64,000 nt of DNA from Streptomyces albogriseolus (GTDB lineage: Bacteria; Actinomycetota; Actinomycetes; Streptomycetales; Streptomycetaceae), in contig BMVA01000001.1 in assembly GCA_014650475.1 (NCBI GenBank), positions 620,001 through 684,000 of the forward strand. The letters run 5' to 3'. Every line of letters starts with the position of its first letter. The stretch's first letter is position 1. The position numbers and the translations under genes were made by a program. Shown here in pieces: positions 32,882-59,814 of this stretch. The notes below the pieces were generated by a model. It was given only the letters and a program-made list of their open reading frames with translations. It ran no database searches and was not told where the DNA came from.

Positions 32882-33361
32882 TCAGGTGCGGAGCCACTCC
32901 GTCATGACCACCTCGTCGGGTGTGTGCAGCCGCAGGGCGAAGGGGCCCGACGGGGTCACCGCCGCCGTGAAGCGGCCCATGTCGTCGGTCGTGGCCGTGG
33001 TGGCCGGTCGGGGGCCCGTGAGGATTTCGACGCGGGCGGGGGCCGGGGGGAGGACCTGGCCGATCAGGCCCTCCTCCGTCACCTCGACGTCCAGCGTCAC
33101 CTCGCCCGCGCTGAACGTCAGCATGCGCGGGGCGGCCGCCGCGCCCCGCACGGGGATCGCGTCGACGAGCGAGTCGAAGGTCAGCTCGGCGACCCGCGCC
33201 TCCAGGTCACGCAGCGCGAACGCGTCGACGGCGCTCTGGAGCAGCGCCGGGGGCACCGGGTCCAGGAGGGACGCGGCCTGCCGCAGCTCCTCCTCCAGCA
33301 GTTCCTCGTCGGCGCCGGGGCCCTCGTCGAAACCCGTGCCGTCGCTGATGTCGTCGCTCAT
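32882..33361 (-). CDS. 159-aa partner protein of the sigma factor, possible anti-sigma or regulator
   Basis: This cytoplasmic protein has a very acidic N-terminus (about residues 1-30) and a helical stretch (LLEEELRQAASLLDPVPPALLQSAVDAFALRDLEARVAEL is the region, about 25-65). Its C-terminal half is beta-rich, resembling a carboxypeptidase-regulatory-like fold. The ATG overlaps the sigma-factor stop by four bases, so it is translationally coupled. That position is where anti-sigma factors often lie, but there is no zinc-binding ZAS motif and no membrane helix. I do not recognise a named family. Confidence 0.75.
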   Translation of the reverse strand: MSDDISDGTGFDEGPGADEELLEEELRQAASLLDPVPPALLQSAVDAFALRDLEARVAELTFDSLVDAIPVRGAAAAPRMLTFSAGEVTLDVEVTEEGLIGQVLPPAPARVEILTGPRPATTATTDDMGRFTAAVTPSGPFALRLHTPDEVVMTEWLRT

Positions 33362-33933
33362 GCCGTCCCCCGTCCCTCCAGCCGGGCCCGCAGCCGGCGC
33401 AGGCAGCGCTGACGCATCGGCCCGATACTGCCCACCGCGATGTCGAGCGCGGCGGACACCTCCTGATAACTGGGCGGTGGAGAAACGATCAGCACGCGCA
33501 GCAACTGCCTGCACCGCTCGCCCAGTTCCTCGAACTCCTGCCACAGTCTCCGCACCCGCTCCCCCTGCGCGGCGGCCTCCTCCGTCTCCAGCAGCGCCTG
33601 TTCGGGCGCGCCGTCCTCGCTGACCGTGTCGAGCAGCTGCGGGTCGTCCGTCAGGACCAGCCGCCGCGCCTGGCGGTGCACCTTCAGGCACTCGTGGCGC
33701 GCGGTGCTGGCCAGCCAGGAACCCGCCTTCTCCGGCTCCCGGATGCGGTCCAGGTGCTGGGTGAAGCGGAACCAGACGGTCTGATACACCTCGTGGGCGT
33801 CGGCGTCGGACAGCCGGTGCGCGCGCACCACGGACCAGACCAGCGGGCCCAGGCCCTCCACGATCGCCTTCCAGGCCGCCGCGTCGCCGTCGACAGCGGA
33901 CCGGACCAATGCGCCGACTTCCGAACGCTCCAC
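33358..33933 (-). CDS. ECF-like RNA polymerase sigma factor
   Basis: This 191-aa sigma-70 family protein has region 2 (about residues 8-90, with DAHEVYQTVWFRF and WLASTARHECLK) and region 4 (about 125-185, with the YQEVSAALDIAVGSIGPMRQRCLRRLR helix-turn-helix). I prefer the GTG at 33933, which has GAGGGG upstream. An ATG at 33996 would give 212 aa and overlaps the protease stop by four bases (ATGA), so it remains a real alternative. The gene lies between a subtilase and a 159-aa protein in one operon, so it probably controls this protease locus or responds to it. Confidence 0.88.
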   Translation of the reverse strand: MERSEVGALVRSAVDGDAAAWKAIVEGLGPLVWSVVRAHRLSDADAHEVYQTVWFRFTQHLDRIREPEKAGSWLASTARHECLKVHRQARRLVLTDDPQLLDTVSEDGAPEQALLETEEAAAQGERVRRLWQEFEELGERCRQLLRVLIVSPPPSYQEVSAALDIAVGSIGPMRQRCLRRLRARLEGRGTA

Positions 33934-33992
33934 GGTGCCACCCCTCGTGTACGGCACGTCATGGTACGCCGCGGAGGGGATGGTTCCGATCG

Positions 33993-35426
33993 TCATGGCC
34001 GCGCGGTGGGCGCCGGGACGCGCACGGGGCGCCAGGTGGGCGGCAGCAGCGCGGGCTTGTGCGCCCCGCGCACCTCCACGAACGCGTCGGCGGAGTCGAG
34101 CAGTTGCCGCCGGGCCGCGCGCGGGTCGCGCTCACCGTGCGCCGCCATGTGCGAGGCGATCATGCCGACCGCGACGGGGGTGGCGAACGAGGTGCCGCTC
34201 CACTGGGCGAGCCCTTCGAACATCACCTGGTCCGGCTTGGCGGACCCTCCGTCCTCGCTCAACAGCCCGGTGTGACGCGGGTGGTGGCAGGTGCAGGCGT
34301 AGCTGAAGCCGTAGCGGCAGGTGTCGTAGGTGGAGTGCTGGTACACGTACGGCACGGGCGTCCGGAACCCGGTGAGGGCGCTGGTCAGCCGCTCTCCGGG
34401 GGCGTACGCCTTCACCCAGCCGCCGTGGTTGCTGAAGCAGGCGCCGGACGCGCCGTCCGCGCGCAGCGCGCCGACCGACAGCACGGCGTCCTCGTAGCCG
34501 GGCAGGCCGGCGTAGGCGGCGGGCCAGAAGGGCGTGGCACTGCCGTTGTTGCCCGCGGCGGCGACCAGCAGGGTGCGCTGCCCGCGCAGTTCGCGCATGA
34601 AGGCGTCGACGCCGAGGAGGCCGTCGGTGCGGCCGTTCGTCGTGCCGGCGGAGAGGCTGAGGACGTCGGGCCAGCCGCCCGCGTCGACGGCGTCGAAGAG
34701 CTTCTCGCCGAACTCGTGCTCCAGCACCGCCCCCGCGTCGTTGAGGGCGCCGCTGACGGTGATGCCGGTGTGCGGGGCGACGGCGGCGACCAGTCCGGCG
34801 ATGAACGTGCCGTGTCCGCAGTACTGCCGGAGGATCCCGTCGTCGTCGCACTCGGCGACCTGGGCGTCCCCCTGGGTGCGGGCGAGCGGCGGGTAGGAGC
34901 GGTAGTCGTGCATCAGGCCGGTGTCGACGACCAGGACCCGCGCGGCGTCCTCGCCGGGTTCGCCGTCGGTCTCGGAGACGGCGGGGTTGGGCCGGGCGTC
35001 GCGCGCCACGGGCACCGGCTCGTCGCCGGGGCAGGCGTTGACGGCGATGTGCACCACGTGGTTGCGGCTGACCACGCGCCGCCCGGCACGGCCCTCCACC
35101 GCGGCGAGCGCGCGCAACGCGCCCGCGACGGCCGGGTCGCCCGCGGCGTCGCCCTCGCCGGGGTCGGACACCTGGATGCGGACGACGCCGGAGCGGCTGC
35201 CCGCGGGACCGAGGCGGCGGACACGGTCCGGGACGCCGGCGGCGAAGGTCCGGAAGTGCCCGCGCACGGTGTCCTCGACGACCTGCGCCTCCTCCCCCTC
35301 GCGGGCGAGGACGACACCCTTCTCGTAGAGGAACTCCCCGGCGTCGTCGGGCCCCATGGCCAGCGGGACGTCGGGCAGGGAGCGCTGGATCTGCCCGAAC
35401 TGCTCACGGAAGCGCTGAGGTGGCAT
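33993..35426 (-). CDS. S8 (subtilisin-family) serine peptidase
   Basis: This 477-aa protease has a complete catalytic triad: Asp168 (VLVVDTG), His205 (CGHGTF) and Ser413 (WSGTSFATP), with the oxyanion Asn in AAAGNNGS. There is no signal peptide, so it should act inside the cell, which is unusual for a subtilase. The ~150-residue N-terminal region (FREQFGQIQRSLPDVPLAM...) is not a standard propeptide and may be a sensor or adaptor domain. A Cys-rich loop (DTCRYGFSYACTCHH) lies between His and Ser. The ATG at 35426 has GGAGG seven bases upstream. It leads the operon with the sigma factor and diverges from the CHAT protease. Confidence 0.92.
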   Translation of the reverse strand: MPPQRFREQFGQIQRSLPDVPLAMGPDDAGEFLYEKGVVLAREGEEAQVVEDTVRGHFRTFAAGVPDRVRRLGPAGSRSGVVRIQVSDPGEGDAAGDPAVAGALRALAAVEGRAGRRVVSRNHVVHIAVNACPGDEPVPVARDARPNPAVSETDGEPGEDAARVLVVDTGLMHDYRSYPPLARTQGDAQVAECDDDGILRQYCGHGTFIAGLVAAVAPHTGITVSGALNDAGAVLEHEFGEKLFDAVDAGGWPDVLSLSAGTTNGRTDGLLGVDAFMRELRGQRTLLVAAAGNNGSATPFWPAAYAGLPGYEDAVLSVGALRADGASGACFSNHGGWVKAYAPGERLTSALTGFRTPVPYVYQHSTYDTCRYGFSYACTCHHPRHTGLLSEDGGSAKPDQVMFEGLAQWSGTSFATPVAVGMIASHMAAHGERDPRAARRQLLDSADAFVEVRGAHKPALLPPTWRPVRVPAPTARP

Positions 35427-35529
35427 GGCGTGTCCTCCACTGGGGCGACGGGGGCCTGAGCCGCGGAGCTGTCGTGAAGAAGAGTCCCGGGGCGGTCCAC
35501 TGATACAGCGCCGTCCCTGTGAGGTGTGG

Positions 35530-38160
35530 TTGCGGACCACTACCATCGTGGAGGTGACAGCGGGAAGCAACGCGGTGCAGGACCTCCTTCCGCTGGTGTT
35601 CGCCGCCCCGAACGAGGCGCTGACGAAGGCCGAGGCCGTACTGCGCCGCCGCCCCACCCCCCTGCACGCCTCCGTCGCCCACCAGGTGATCGGCATCTGG
35701 CAGCGGGACTTCGGGGACATGCGGCTCGCCCTGCGTCATCTGCGGCGGGCGCGGAACTGGGCGGCGCGGGCGGGCTCGGCGGACCGGGAGGCGGACGTCC
35801 TCGCCACGCTCGGGGTGGCGTTGGTGCATTCGGGGCGCACTCGGCAGGGGCTGGACGCCCTGGGCCGGGGCGTGCGGCGCGGCGCCGGCCACACCCGTGC
35901 CCGGGTGCTGTTCCGGCGGGCGTACGCGTGGTGGGTGCTGGGCCATCACAAGGAGGCCCTGGAGGACGTACGGCGGGCCGTTCCGGTGCTGCGGCAGGCC
36001 GGGGACGTGATCTGGACGGCGCGGGCGCTGACGCTGCGGGCGACGGTGCATCTGGCGCTGGGCGCGGTGGAGCGGGCGGAGGCGGACTTCGCGTCGGCGG
36101 AGGATCTGTGGGCGGTCACGGACCAGGAGCACGACAAGGCGGACGCGGTGGAGAGCCGCGGTCTTGCCGCGTTCCGCTCCGGTGACGTCCCGGCGGCGCT
36201 GCGGCTGCTGGACGAGGCGGAGGAGCGGTATGCCAAGCTGGGCACGCCGACGTTCATGCTGAGCATCCGGCGCTGCGAGGTGCTGATGGCGGCCGGTCTG
36301 GCAGCGGAGGCGCTGGCCGAGACGGACACGGCGATCGCCGAACTGGACTCCATCGGCGGGCAGTCGACGCGCAAGGCGGAGCTGCTGCTGGCGGCCGCGC
36401 GGGCCGCCCGGCAGGCCGACGACCCGGCGACGGCCATGGCGCGGGCCGGACTCGCCGTGCGGCTGTTCGCGGGCCAGCGGCGCACCTGGTGGGAGGCGCA
36501 CGCCCGGCTGGTGCTGATCGGGGCCCGGCACGCGGCGGGGAAGGGCTCGGGACGGCTGGTCGCGGACGCCGCGGCGGTGGCGGAGCGACTGGTGGAGCTC
36601 GGCGCGCCGGCCGCCCCGGAGGCGTACCTGCTGGCCGGGCGGATCGCGCTGGACCTGGGCCGGACGGCGGACGCCGAGCCGTATCTGGCGGTGGCCGCGC
36701 GCAGCCGGCACAACGGGCCGCCGCTCGCGCGGATGACGGGCTGGGCGGCGCAGGCGTTGCGCGCGCGGGCGGCCGGTTCCACGCGGGGCGTGCTGGAGGC
36801 CTGCCGGCGCGGGCTCGACGTGCTGGACGACCACCGGATGACGCTGGGCGCGTCCGAGCTGCGGGCGCGGGCCACCGCGCGGGGCGCGGAACTGGCGGCG
36901 CTGGCGCAGCGGGCCGCCCTGCGGTCGGGCGGGCCGCGGCGGCTGCTGGTGTGGAGCGAGCGCTGGCGGGCCACGGTGCTGTCCGCGCCGCCGACCCGGC
37001 CGCCCGCCGACCCGGAGCTGCTGAGCCACATGACCGCCTACCGGGAGATCGCGGCCCGCGCCGAGGAGACCCGGATGGAGGGCAGGCCGATGCCGGCCCT
37101 GGAGCGGGAGCAGCGCCGCCTGGAGCGGGCGATCCGCTCCCGCACCCTGCACATGCGGGGCGAGGCGCACGGCGACGACGCCCGCTTCGACGTGGACCGC
37201 CTGCTGGAGCGACTGGGCGACCGCGTACGGCTGGTGGAGCTGGCGGTGGTCGACGGGCGGGTGCAGGCGCTGCTGTGCGGGCAGGGCCGGGTGCGCCGGT
37301 TCGAGGCGGGGTGGCTGGCGGCGGCCGAGACGGAGGCCGAGCATGTGCAGGCGGGGCTGCGGCGGCTGGCCCATCCGGGGGCGCAGGCGCGGCTGCCGGT
37401 GGTGGAGGCGGCGGGCCGCCGTCTGGAGGAGCTGCTGCTGGGGCCCGCCGCGGCTCACCTGGGCGAAGGGCCGGTGGTGATCGTGCCGCCGGGGCGGCTG
37501 CACCGGGTGCCGTGGGCGCTGCTGCCGTCGCTGCGGGAACGCGTCGTCAGTGTGTCGCCGTCGGCGAGCAGCTGGCTGCGCGCGCGGGAGACGCGGCCGC
37601 CGCGGGGCGGACGCAAGGTGCTGGTGCGCGGGCCGGGTCTGGCCACGGGGGGCGCGGAGGTGACCCGGCTGGCCGCACGCCACGGCGGCGCGACGGTGCT
37701 GGAGCACGGGGACGCGTCGGTGCCGCGGGTGCTCGCGGAGCTGGACGGGGCCGGGCTGGCGCACATCGCGGCGCACGGCACGTTCCGCACGGACGGCCCG
37801 ATGTTCTCCTCCCTGCGGATGGCCGACGGCCCGCTGATCGTGCACGACTTCGAACGGCTCGGCCGCAGCCCGTACCGCATCATCCTGTCCTGCTGCGACA
37901 CGGCCCGCTTCGCCACGGTCGGCGCGGACGAACTCCTCGGCCTGGTCACGGCGTTGCTGCCGCTGGGCACAGCGGGAGTGGTGGCGTGCAGCGCCCCGGT
38001 CAACGACGCGGCGGTGGTCCCCCTGATGCTCGCCCTGCACGAGGGCCTGGCCGCGGGCCTCCCTCTTCCGGAGGCGCTGCGGGACGCCCGGGCGGCTCTC
38101 CCCGCCGATCCGCTGCACCGGGCCACGGGCTGGTCCTTCACCGCGTTCGGGGCGGCGTGA
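35530..38160 (+). CDS. TPR-CHAT (caspase-like) protease
   Basis: This 876-aa protein has an N-terminal array of TPR-like helical repeats (about residues 20-480) and a C-terminal CHAT domain (about 570-876). The clan-CD dyad is visible: His749 in HIAAHGTF and Cys789 in LSCCDTARF. CHAT proteases cut specific partner proteins, as in TPR-CHAT/Craspase and gasdermin-type defence. I chose the TTG at 35530 because GAGG lies five bases upstream; GTGs at 35524 and 35548 are alternatives. It diverges from the subtilase operon with 103 bases between, so the two proteases are likely coregulated. Confidence 0.9.
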   Translation: MRTTTIVEVTAGSNAVQDLLPLVFAAPNEALTKAEAVLRRRPTPLHASVAHQVIGIWQRDFGDMRLALRHLRRARNWAARAGSADREADVLATLGVALVHSGRTRQGLDALGRGVRRGAGHTRARVLFRRAYAWWVLGHHKEALEDVRRAVPVLRQAGDVIWTARALTLRATVHLALGAVERAEADFASAEDLWAVTDQEHDKADAVESRGLAAFRSGDVPAALRLLDEAEERYAKLGTPTFMLSIRRCEVLMAAGLAAEALAETDTAIAELDSIGGQSTRKAELLLAAARAARQADDPATAMARAGLAVRLFAGQRRTWWEAHARLVLIGARHAAGKGSGRLVADAAAVAERLVELGAPAAPEAYLLAGRIALDLGRTADAEPYLAVAARSRHNGPPLARMTGWAAQALRARAAGSTRGVLEACRRGLDVLDDHRMTLGASELRARATARGAELAALAQRAALRSGGPRRLLVWSERWRATVLSAPPTRPPADPELLSHMTAYREIAARAEETRMEGRPMPALEREQRRLERAIRSRTLHMRGEAHGDDARFDVDRLLERLGDRVRLVELAVVDGRVQALLCGQGRVRRFEAGWLAAAETEAEHVQAGLRRLAHPGAQARLPVVEAAGRRLEELLLGPAAAHLGEGPVVIVPPGRLHRVPWALLPSLRERVVSVSPSASSWLRARETRPPRGGRKVLVRGPGLATGGAEVTRLAARHGGATVLEHGDASVPRVLAELDGAGLAHIAAHGTFRTDGPMFSSLRMADGPLIVHDFERLGRSPYRIILSCCDTARFATVGADELLGLVTALLPLGTAGVVACSAPVNDAAVVPLMLALHEGLAAGLPLPEALRDARAALPADPLHRATGWSFTAFGAA

Positions 38161-39455: not shown

Positions 39456-39466
39456 TTCTCGCATCG

Positions 39467-39540
<74 letters not shown>

Positions 39541-59730: not shown

Positions 59731-59740
59731 CACTGCACCG

Positions 59741-59814
<74 letters not shown>

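Follow-up and report, generated by a model that had tools for sequence, protein, structure and literature searches.

A protease and sigma factor module of Streptomyces albogriseolus, conserved in other Actinomycetota, as a candidate CRISPR-independent sigma switch

Several bacterial systems in which a protease or a protease-like protein is tied to the control of a sigma factor have been described, and we compare them here on the basis of extracts of the cited papers. In the CASP system, linked to type III-E CRISPR (clustered regularly interspaced short palindromic repeats) immunity, Csx29 cuts Csx30, the inhibitor of CASP-sigma, and the motifs found at the locus suggest positive autoregulation (PMC10028731). 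In the Calp system the protease CalpL cuts the anti-sigma factor CalpT and thereby frees the extracytoplasmic function (ECF) sigma factor CalpS, and the same paper mentions a SAVED-CHAT cascade (PMC11417357). In Myxococcus xanthus the CHAT-domain anti-sigma factor DdvA is paired with the ECF sigma factor DdvS (title of PDB 8rot; PMC12288465, PMC4374960), and in the EACC2/caspase systems a caspase-like protease is linked to an ECF sigma factor and a DUF1822 TPR protein (Kaur et al. 2021, PMC8195603); the terms 'sigma factor' and 'CHAT' do not occur in Kaur et al. 2020 (PMC7159879). Here we analyse a window of 64 kb from the 8.07-Mb genome of Streptomyces albogriseolus, in which a subtilase (S8), an ECF sigma factor (SIG) and a small protein of 159 aa (P159) are encoded next to a divergent TPR-CHAT protease (CHAT; Table 1).

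An earlier note on this DNA had proposed a likeness to Craspase and a tie between protease and sigma factor. Both are supported, and the reading is sharpened by a promoter, a candidate scissile arginine and a CHAT domain that is modelled as Csx29- and separase-like. Type III-E Craspase (Cas7-11, the TPR-CHAT protein Csx29, Csx30 and CASP-sigma) parallels the proposed protease-gated sigma logic, but no Cas gene, Cas7-11 included, lies among the eight neighbouring genes of the window, and the window module adds an S8 protease and is chromosomal and widespread in Actinomycetota. Csx30 (565 aa) is not among the profile matches of P159 in the PDB, no direct comparison of the two having been made. 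Calp works by the logic proposed here, an ECF sigma factor being set free when a protease cuts its anti-sigma factor; however, its Lon-SAVED protease and cyclic-oligoadenylate trigger are not seen in the four proteins of the window, and Pfam finds S8 and CHAT, and neither Lon nor SAVED, in the two proteases. DdvA and DdvS resemble the module in the pairing of a CHAT-domain protein with an ECF sigma factor. DdvA is a transmembrane protein according to the entry title, whereas the CHAT protein of the window is probably soluble and keeps the catalytic His and Cys, and here a separate gene, that of P159, overlaps the sigma factor gene. As in the EACC2 systems a caspase-like protease is tied to an ECF sigma factor, but none of the four proteins has a Pfam match to EACC2, TRADD-N or DUF1822, and the extract of PMC8195603 does not mention a pairing of S8 with P159. 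In literature listings, from which most subscription papers fall out, we recognised no publication describing the four-gene module.

We propose that the module is a CRISPR-independent, protease-gated ECF sigma switch in which CHAT cuts P159, the sigma factor is freed and the module is amplified, a proposal whose chances we regard as evenly balanced. P159 would keep SIG inactive through the helices of its N-terminal part. The TPR-CHAT protease would be switched on when its TPR part senses a signal, and would then cut P159 after Arg72, in the linker between the helical part and a beta-sandwich; with the loss of its inhibitor SIG would be freed. Free SIG would transcribe its own operon from TGTATCA-N15-[G/A]CTCT and so provide more subtilase, sigma factor and inhibitor; in most Streptomyces loci it would also transcribe the gene of a LuxR-type ATPase (LAL), which lies next to a metalloprotease without a signal-like N-terminus. 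New P159 would limit SIG, making the circuit a self-limiting amplifier, the output of which would be a burst of intracellular proteolysis. Comparative support comes from the conservation of the module, the invariant catalytic residues and linker arginine, the operon promoter and the models of CHAT, of sigma2 and of the P159 beta-sandwich; we infer the reading of the promoter by SIG, the roles of P159 as inhibitor and of CHAT as its cutter, the order of events and the cellular purpose.

Profiles of the four families were built from fetched loci. P159 was found in 26 out of 41 relatives and in 33 of the 396 genomes of a phylum sample. The Streptomyces set comprises the best 80 of 124 loci from a P159 scan of named genomes, the wide set 37 loci from other genera which were selected from P159 matches and some of which are cut by contig ends. 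All four families are present on the same strands in 77 of the 80 Streptomyces loci, and the remaining three (L029, L038, L087) are truncated by the end of their contig. In the wide set SIG adjoins P159 in 33 of 37 loci (a weak sigma match of 65 bits at L139 was left uncounted), 26 loci have CHAT close by and 23 hold the full set of four families; the gene order varies, for example with S8-SIG-P159-CHAT in line. These counts bear out the single conserved module of four families suggested by the earlier note, which had taken a lack of conservation beyond close relatives to speak against it: the neighbourhood recurs in other families and is therefore more than chance.

The CHAT profile is positive in 52 of the 396 genomes, including 31 of the 33 with P159 (all but G308 and G425; hypergeometric p 7e-30, uncorrected for relatedness). 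Because diverged P159 and SIG genes lie beside CHAT in all six inspected genomes (G245, G287, G309, G366, G382, G392) out of the 21 with CHAT and no P159 match, the P159 search undercounts. S8 is close to CHAT in 28 of 30 loci, in 25 inside a 1.5-kb flank and in three more in wider loci. The set can also be split: in six genomes (G275, G356, G125, G157, G347, G425) the fetched stretch around SIG-P159 contains neither CHAT nor S8, and a complete set was not seen elsewhere in them. Three of these (G356, G125, G157) have an S8-CHAT pair elsewhere, CHAT alone was seen in G275 and in G347, where it is cut by a contig end, and G425 has no CHAT match. Three other genomes (G081, G201, G228) carry further solitary P159 or SIG-P159 genes plus a separate S8-CHAT pair. 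In one family, solitary SIG-P159 pairs adjoin what appear by eye to be cytochrome bc1 (qcr) genes (L134, L135, L141, L144). Within the genus the presence of the module is patchy, the CHAT query matching 64 out of 199 genomes.

When the gaps between S8 and CHAT are aligned (77 named loci, three others and the window), TGTATC is found in 81 of 81, and a [GA][CG]TC[TA] box follows at one fixed offset in 78. The stricter pattern TGTATCA-N14/15-[ACG]CTC stands upstream of S8 in 71 of the 77 named loci. In the source genome there are three pattern matches, one of them at the operon; no clear gene lies downstream of the other two. A set of 121 congeneric genomes contains 58 sites of the exact form TGTATCA-N15-[G/A]CTCT, namely 30 at the operon, seven at the LAL position and 21 elsewhere, while the pattern written backwards gives 13 sites in the same genomes. 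Of the 36 genomes with CHAT, 33 have a promoter match, and of the 85 without CHAT, 7 do (Fisher 2e-19, each genome being counted as independent); 65 of these 85 were searched again for CHAT with the query that matches 64 of 199, and none of them gave a match. An ECF-type promoter on the sigma operon goes with the module in Streptomyces, and SIG would be the factor that recognises it. A wide sigma regulon was considered and rejected, as 21 sites outside the operon and LAL positions, set against 13 of the backwards pattern, leave little or nothing for it. In three distant genomes (L154:17687, L143:4467, L268:1471) a TGTATCA-CTC site lies just behind CHAT and is directed into an oppositely oriented gene, and a coding target was not seen.

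In Pfam the subtilase matches Peptidase_S8 (2e-16), and the CHAT protein matches CHAT (1e-27) plus TPR. An intact S8 triad and a His749/Cys789 dyad of CHAT (numbered after an 876-aa version starting at 35530) had been read from the window alone, and relatives agree: in an alignment of 86 S8 sequences D168, H205 and N293 are invariant and S413 is kept in 83 of 83 readable sequences, three being frame-broken upstream of it, and in 98 aligned CHAT sequences H749 is found in all 98 and C789 in all 97 that are readable. In three Streptomyces loci (L034, L045, L048) S8 is frame-broken in a similar region, and two of them have a broken or cut CHAT, which may reflect decay or assembly errors. The predicted CHAT structure matches Csx29 and separase, and such a modelled fold with its His-Cys dyad is what would be expected of a clan CD cysteine peptidase. 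The predicted lack of a signal peptide in S8 also holds, with no hydrophobic signal-like stretch within residues 1-70; a hydrophobicity scan found no signal-like N-terminus in the four proteins of the window or in the metalloprotease of L166. Hydrophobic stretches above threshold occur in 84 of the 98 CHAT sequences. In the window protein strong hydrophobicity is confined to stretches at 801-836, inside the modelled, folded CHAT core, which is why we regard this protein as probably soluble. Module-adjacent proteins with weak NAL1/trypsin matches were noticed at L155:11818-13299, with a TGTATCA site upstream of the gene, and at L140:11331-12905.

SIG matches Sigma70_r2 in Pfam (4e-11) and sigma70-ECF in NCBIfam (2e-18, residues 41-206), and has the sigma2 and sigma4 regions expected of an ECF (group IV) sigma factor. 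P159 is single-copy in the source genome and gives in Pfam CarboxypepD_reg alone, below the cut-off (E 0.02). Its predicted architecture is a helical segment (about 20-66), a disordered linker and an Ig-like beta-sandwich (about 78-158). Within the linker Arg72 is the one invariant arginine, followed by G, A, S or T, and it is a candidate cleavage site. Mirror-tree correlations are high for every pair of families (0.81-0.975) and therefore cannot tell partners apart. In Streptomyces sp. GKU 895 (L043:9365-10489) sigma factor and P159 form one open reading frame of 374 aa; a run of G at the seam makes a sequencing or real indel likely. In two loci (L153, L282) S8, P159 and CHAT are repeated and P159 has additional copies, but there is a single sigma gene.

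A number of observations weigh against the proposed switch. P159 occurs without this sigma factor in four of the 37 wide loci (L131, L138, L139, L150), and the CHAT gene of Streptomyces is not part of the sigma operon. At the operon, 6 of the 36 CHAT-positive genomes lack the exact motif, three of which have no match at all (G232, G472 and the incomplete G001 with a cut CHAT match) and three a match only elsewhere (G013, G437, G514). Outside the genus the site precedes S8 or SIG in only seven of 37 loci (L144, L154, L159, L161, L164, L165, L169), and among 30 module-bearing genomes 17 match, versus 10 for the backwards control (35 vs 16 sites); there the motif may have drifted, or those sigma factors may read a different sequence. 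Arg72 may be structural, and it does not indicate which protease would cut there. A PDB profile search with P159 found no convincing similarity to solved proteins of known function, and AlphaFold docking of SIG with P159, from a thin and unpaired alignment, gave no confident interface (pTM 0.38).

Additional members of the module were counted in the 66 named loci with more than 4 kb beyond CHAT. LAL is present in 58 of them, with GerE above and AAA_16 just below the cut-off, and an astacin-like zinc metalloprotease, divergent from LAL, in 55. In 57 of the 58 LAL loci LAL is preceded by a second TGTATCA site that faces it; in L086, which is without LAL, the site faces the metalloprotease. The LAL promoters of L166:2368, L167:16328 and other Streptomyces loci have an inverted repeat CTACTCA...TGAGTAG around TGTATCA, possibly an operator for LAL or another regulator. 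In the window neither gene stands beside the module; the LAL-like protein that matches best in the source genome has 34% identity. A bolder version of the proposed switch can be put forward tentatively, and we do not expect it to hold in full: a phylum-wide, CRISPR-independent caspase-sigma switch, in which a cut by a separase- or Csx29-like protease at one invariant arginine of a dedicated soluble inhibitor would free a sigma factor for a burst of intracellular proteases (the subtilase and, in most Streptomyces, the metalloprotease beside a LAL with the same promoter), serving as a regulated self-digestion or cell-death circuit and possibly as a source of the Craspase accessory genes.

The role in phage defence considered in the earlier note found no specific support, and an anti-phage or abortive-infection system is in our view unlikely. 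CHAT proteases and protease-freed sigma factors do belong to CRISPR-linked immunity (PMC10028731, PMC11417357), and the LAL of relatives matches two PADLOC models of CARF proteins, in the HTH part only (6e-9). The patchy presence in the genus would also suit defence, but it is compatible with any optional stress, developmental or immune role. On the other side, PADLOC detects no catalogued system in the four proteins, finding only subtilase-domain similarity to its models subtilase and IetS, and nothing in the eight window neighbours. The Pfam matches of these are of housekeeping type, among them icd, N-formylglutamate amidohydrolase and oxidoreductases, and as many as 42 of the 63 Streptomyces flanks share the icd gene. 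Carriage by phages or plasmids was rejected, as P159 has no match in the phage collection and a single one in the plasmid collection, a chromosome-sized Nonomuraea record of 11.9 Mb. Two tRNA-Pro(GGG) genes lie 20 kb apart in the window (39466-39540 and 59740-59814), with inositol-catabolism-like genes between them by eye; a mobile island at these genes was likewise rejected, since no integrase was noticed by eye between them, the flanks differ and the icd flank is shared with many relatives.

The subtilase instead of CHAT might cut P159, with CHAT as a downstream executioner or as the cutter of S8, or several proteases might act on P159 as a bait. A single invariant arginine would be more in keeping with an Arg-specific clan CD enzyme than with a subtilase or a bait of broad range. 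In L140, where S8 was not found, CHAT, SIG and P159 are still present, next to a protein that weakly matches NAL1_N. We consider this alternative distinctly unlikely.

It is quite improbable that TPR-CHAT itself inhibits the sigma factor, as DdvA does for DdvS, with P159 as a co-factor or sensor. The invariance of the dyad in all 97 readable sequences disfavours this, being hard to square with a mere binding protein; P159, not CHAT, overlaps SIG, and the invariant linker arginine would be left unexplained. That the four genes merely share a place and act separately, the sigma factor regulating only its own operon upon an unrelated signal, would fit the shuffled gene order between families and an interaction of the products that is so far only proposed, but is very improbable given that the set is retained across the phylum despite shuffling and splitting.

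The layout given in the earlier note is confirmed: S8, SIG and P159 follow each other in a minus-strand operon with a stop/start overlap of 4 nt at each junction, and the TPR-CHAT gene diverges from it. The gap of 103 bases between S8 and CHAT holds only for a TTG start at 35530. Conservation of the DNA among Streptomyces begins at the GTG codons 35548/35554, directly behind the CACTACCATC block, and suggests one of these as the likely start, with a gap of 121 or 127 nt. To judge from the position of TACCAT and this block, the CHAT mRNA is perhaps leaderless.

Table 1. Features of the module (positions in the window)
Feature	Position	Strand	Description
P159	32882..33361	-	159 aa, small, no transmembrane stretch; proposed sigma inhibitor and protease substrate
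SIG	33358..33996	-	ECF (group IV) sigma factor, 212 aa
S8	33993..35426	-	subtilase, 477 aa, D168/H205/N293/S413, N-terminus not signal-like
ECF-type promoter TGTATCA-N15-ACTCT of the S8-SIG-P159 operon	35481..35507	-	
TACCAT, putative -10 element upstream of CHAT	35541..35546	+	inside the near-invariant CACTACCATC block (35538-35547)
TPR-CHAT protease	35554..38160	+	likely start 35548 or 35554; TPR superhelix and CHAT domain

New in this analysis are the ECF-type promoter of the operon, the second promoter facing LAL, the candidate cut arginine of P159 and the Csx29/separase-like model of CHAT. If the proposed switch holds true, sigma factors would be set free by caspase-like proteases in a widespread circuit of Actinomycetota and not as a CRISPR speciality. 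The promoter and the candidate cut site of this circuit are defined, and its hosts are open to genetic work. A natural non-CRISPR comparison for Csx29 and Csx30 would be at hand, and the control and the targets of the intracellular executioner-like proteases of Streptomyces would become directly testable.

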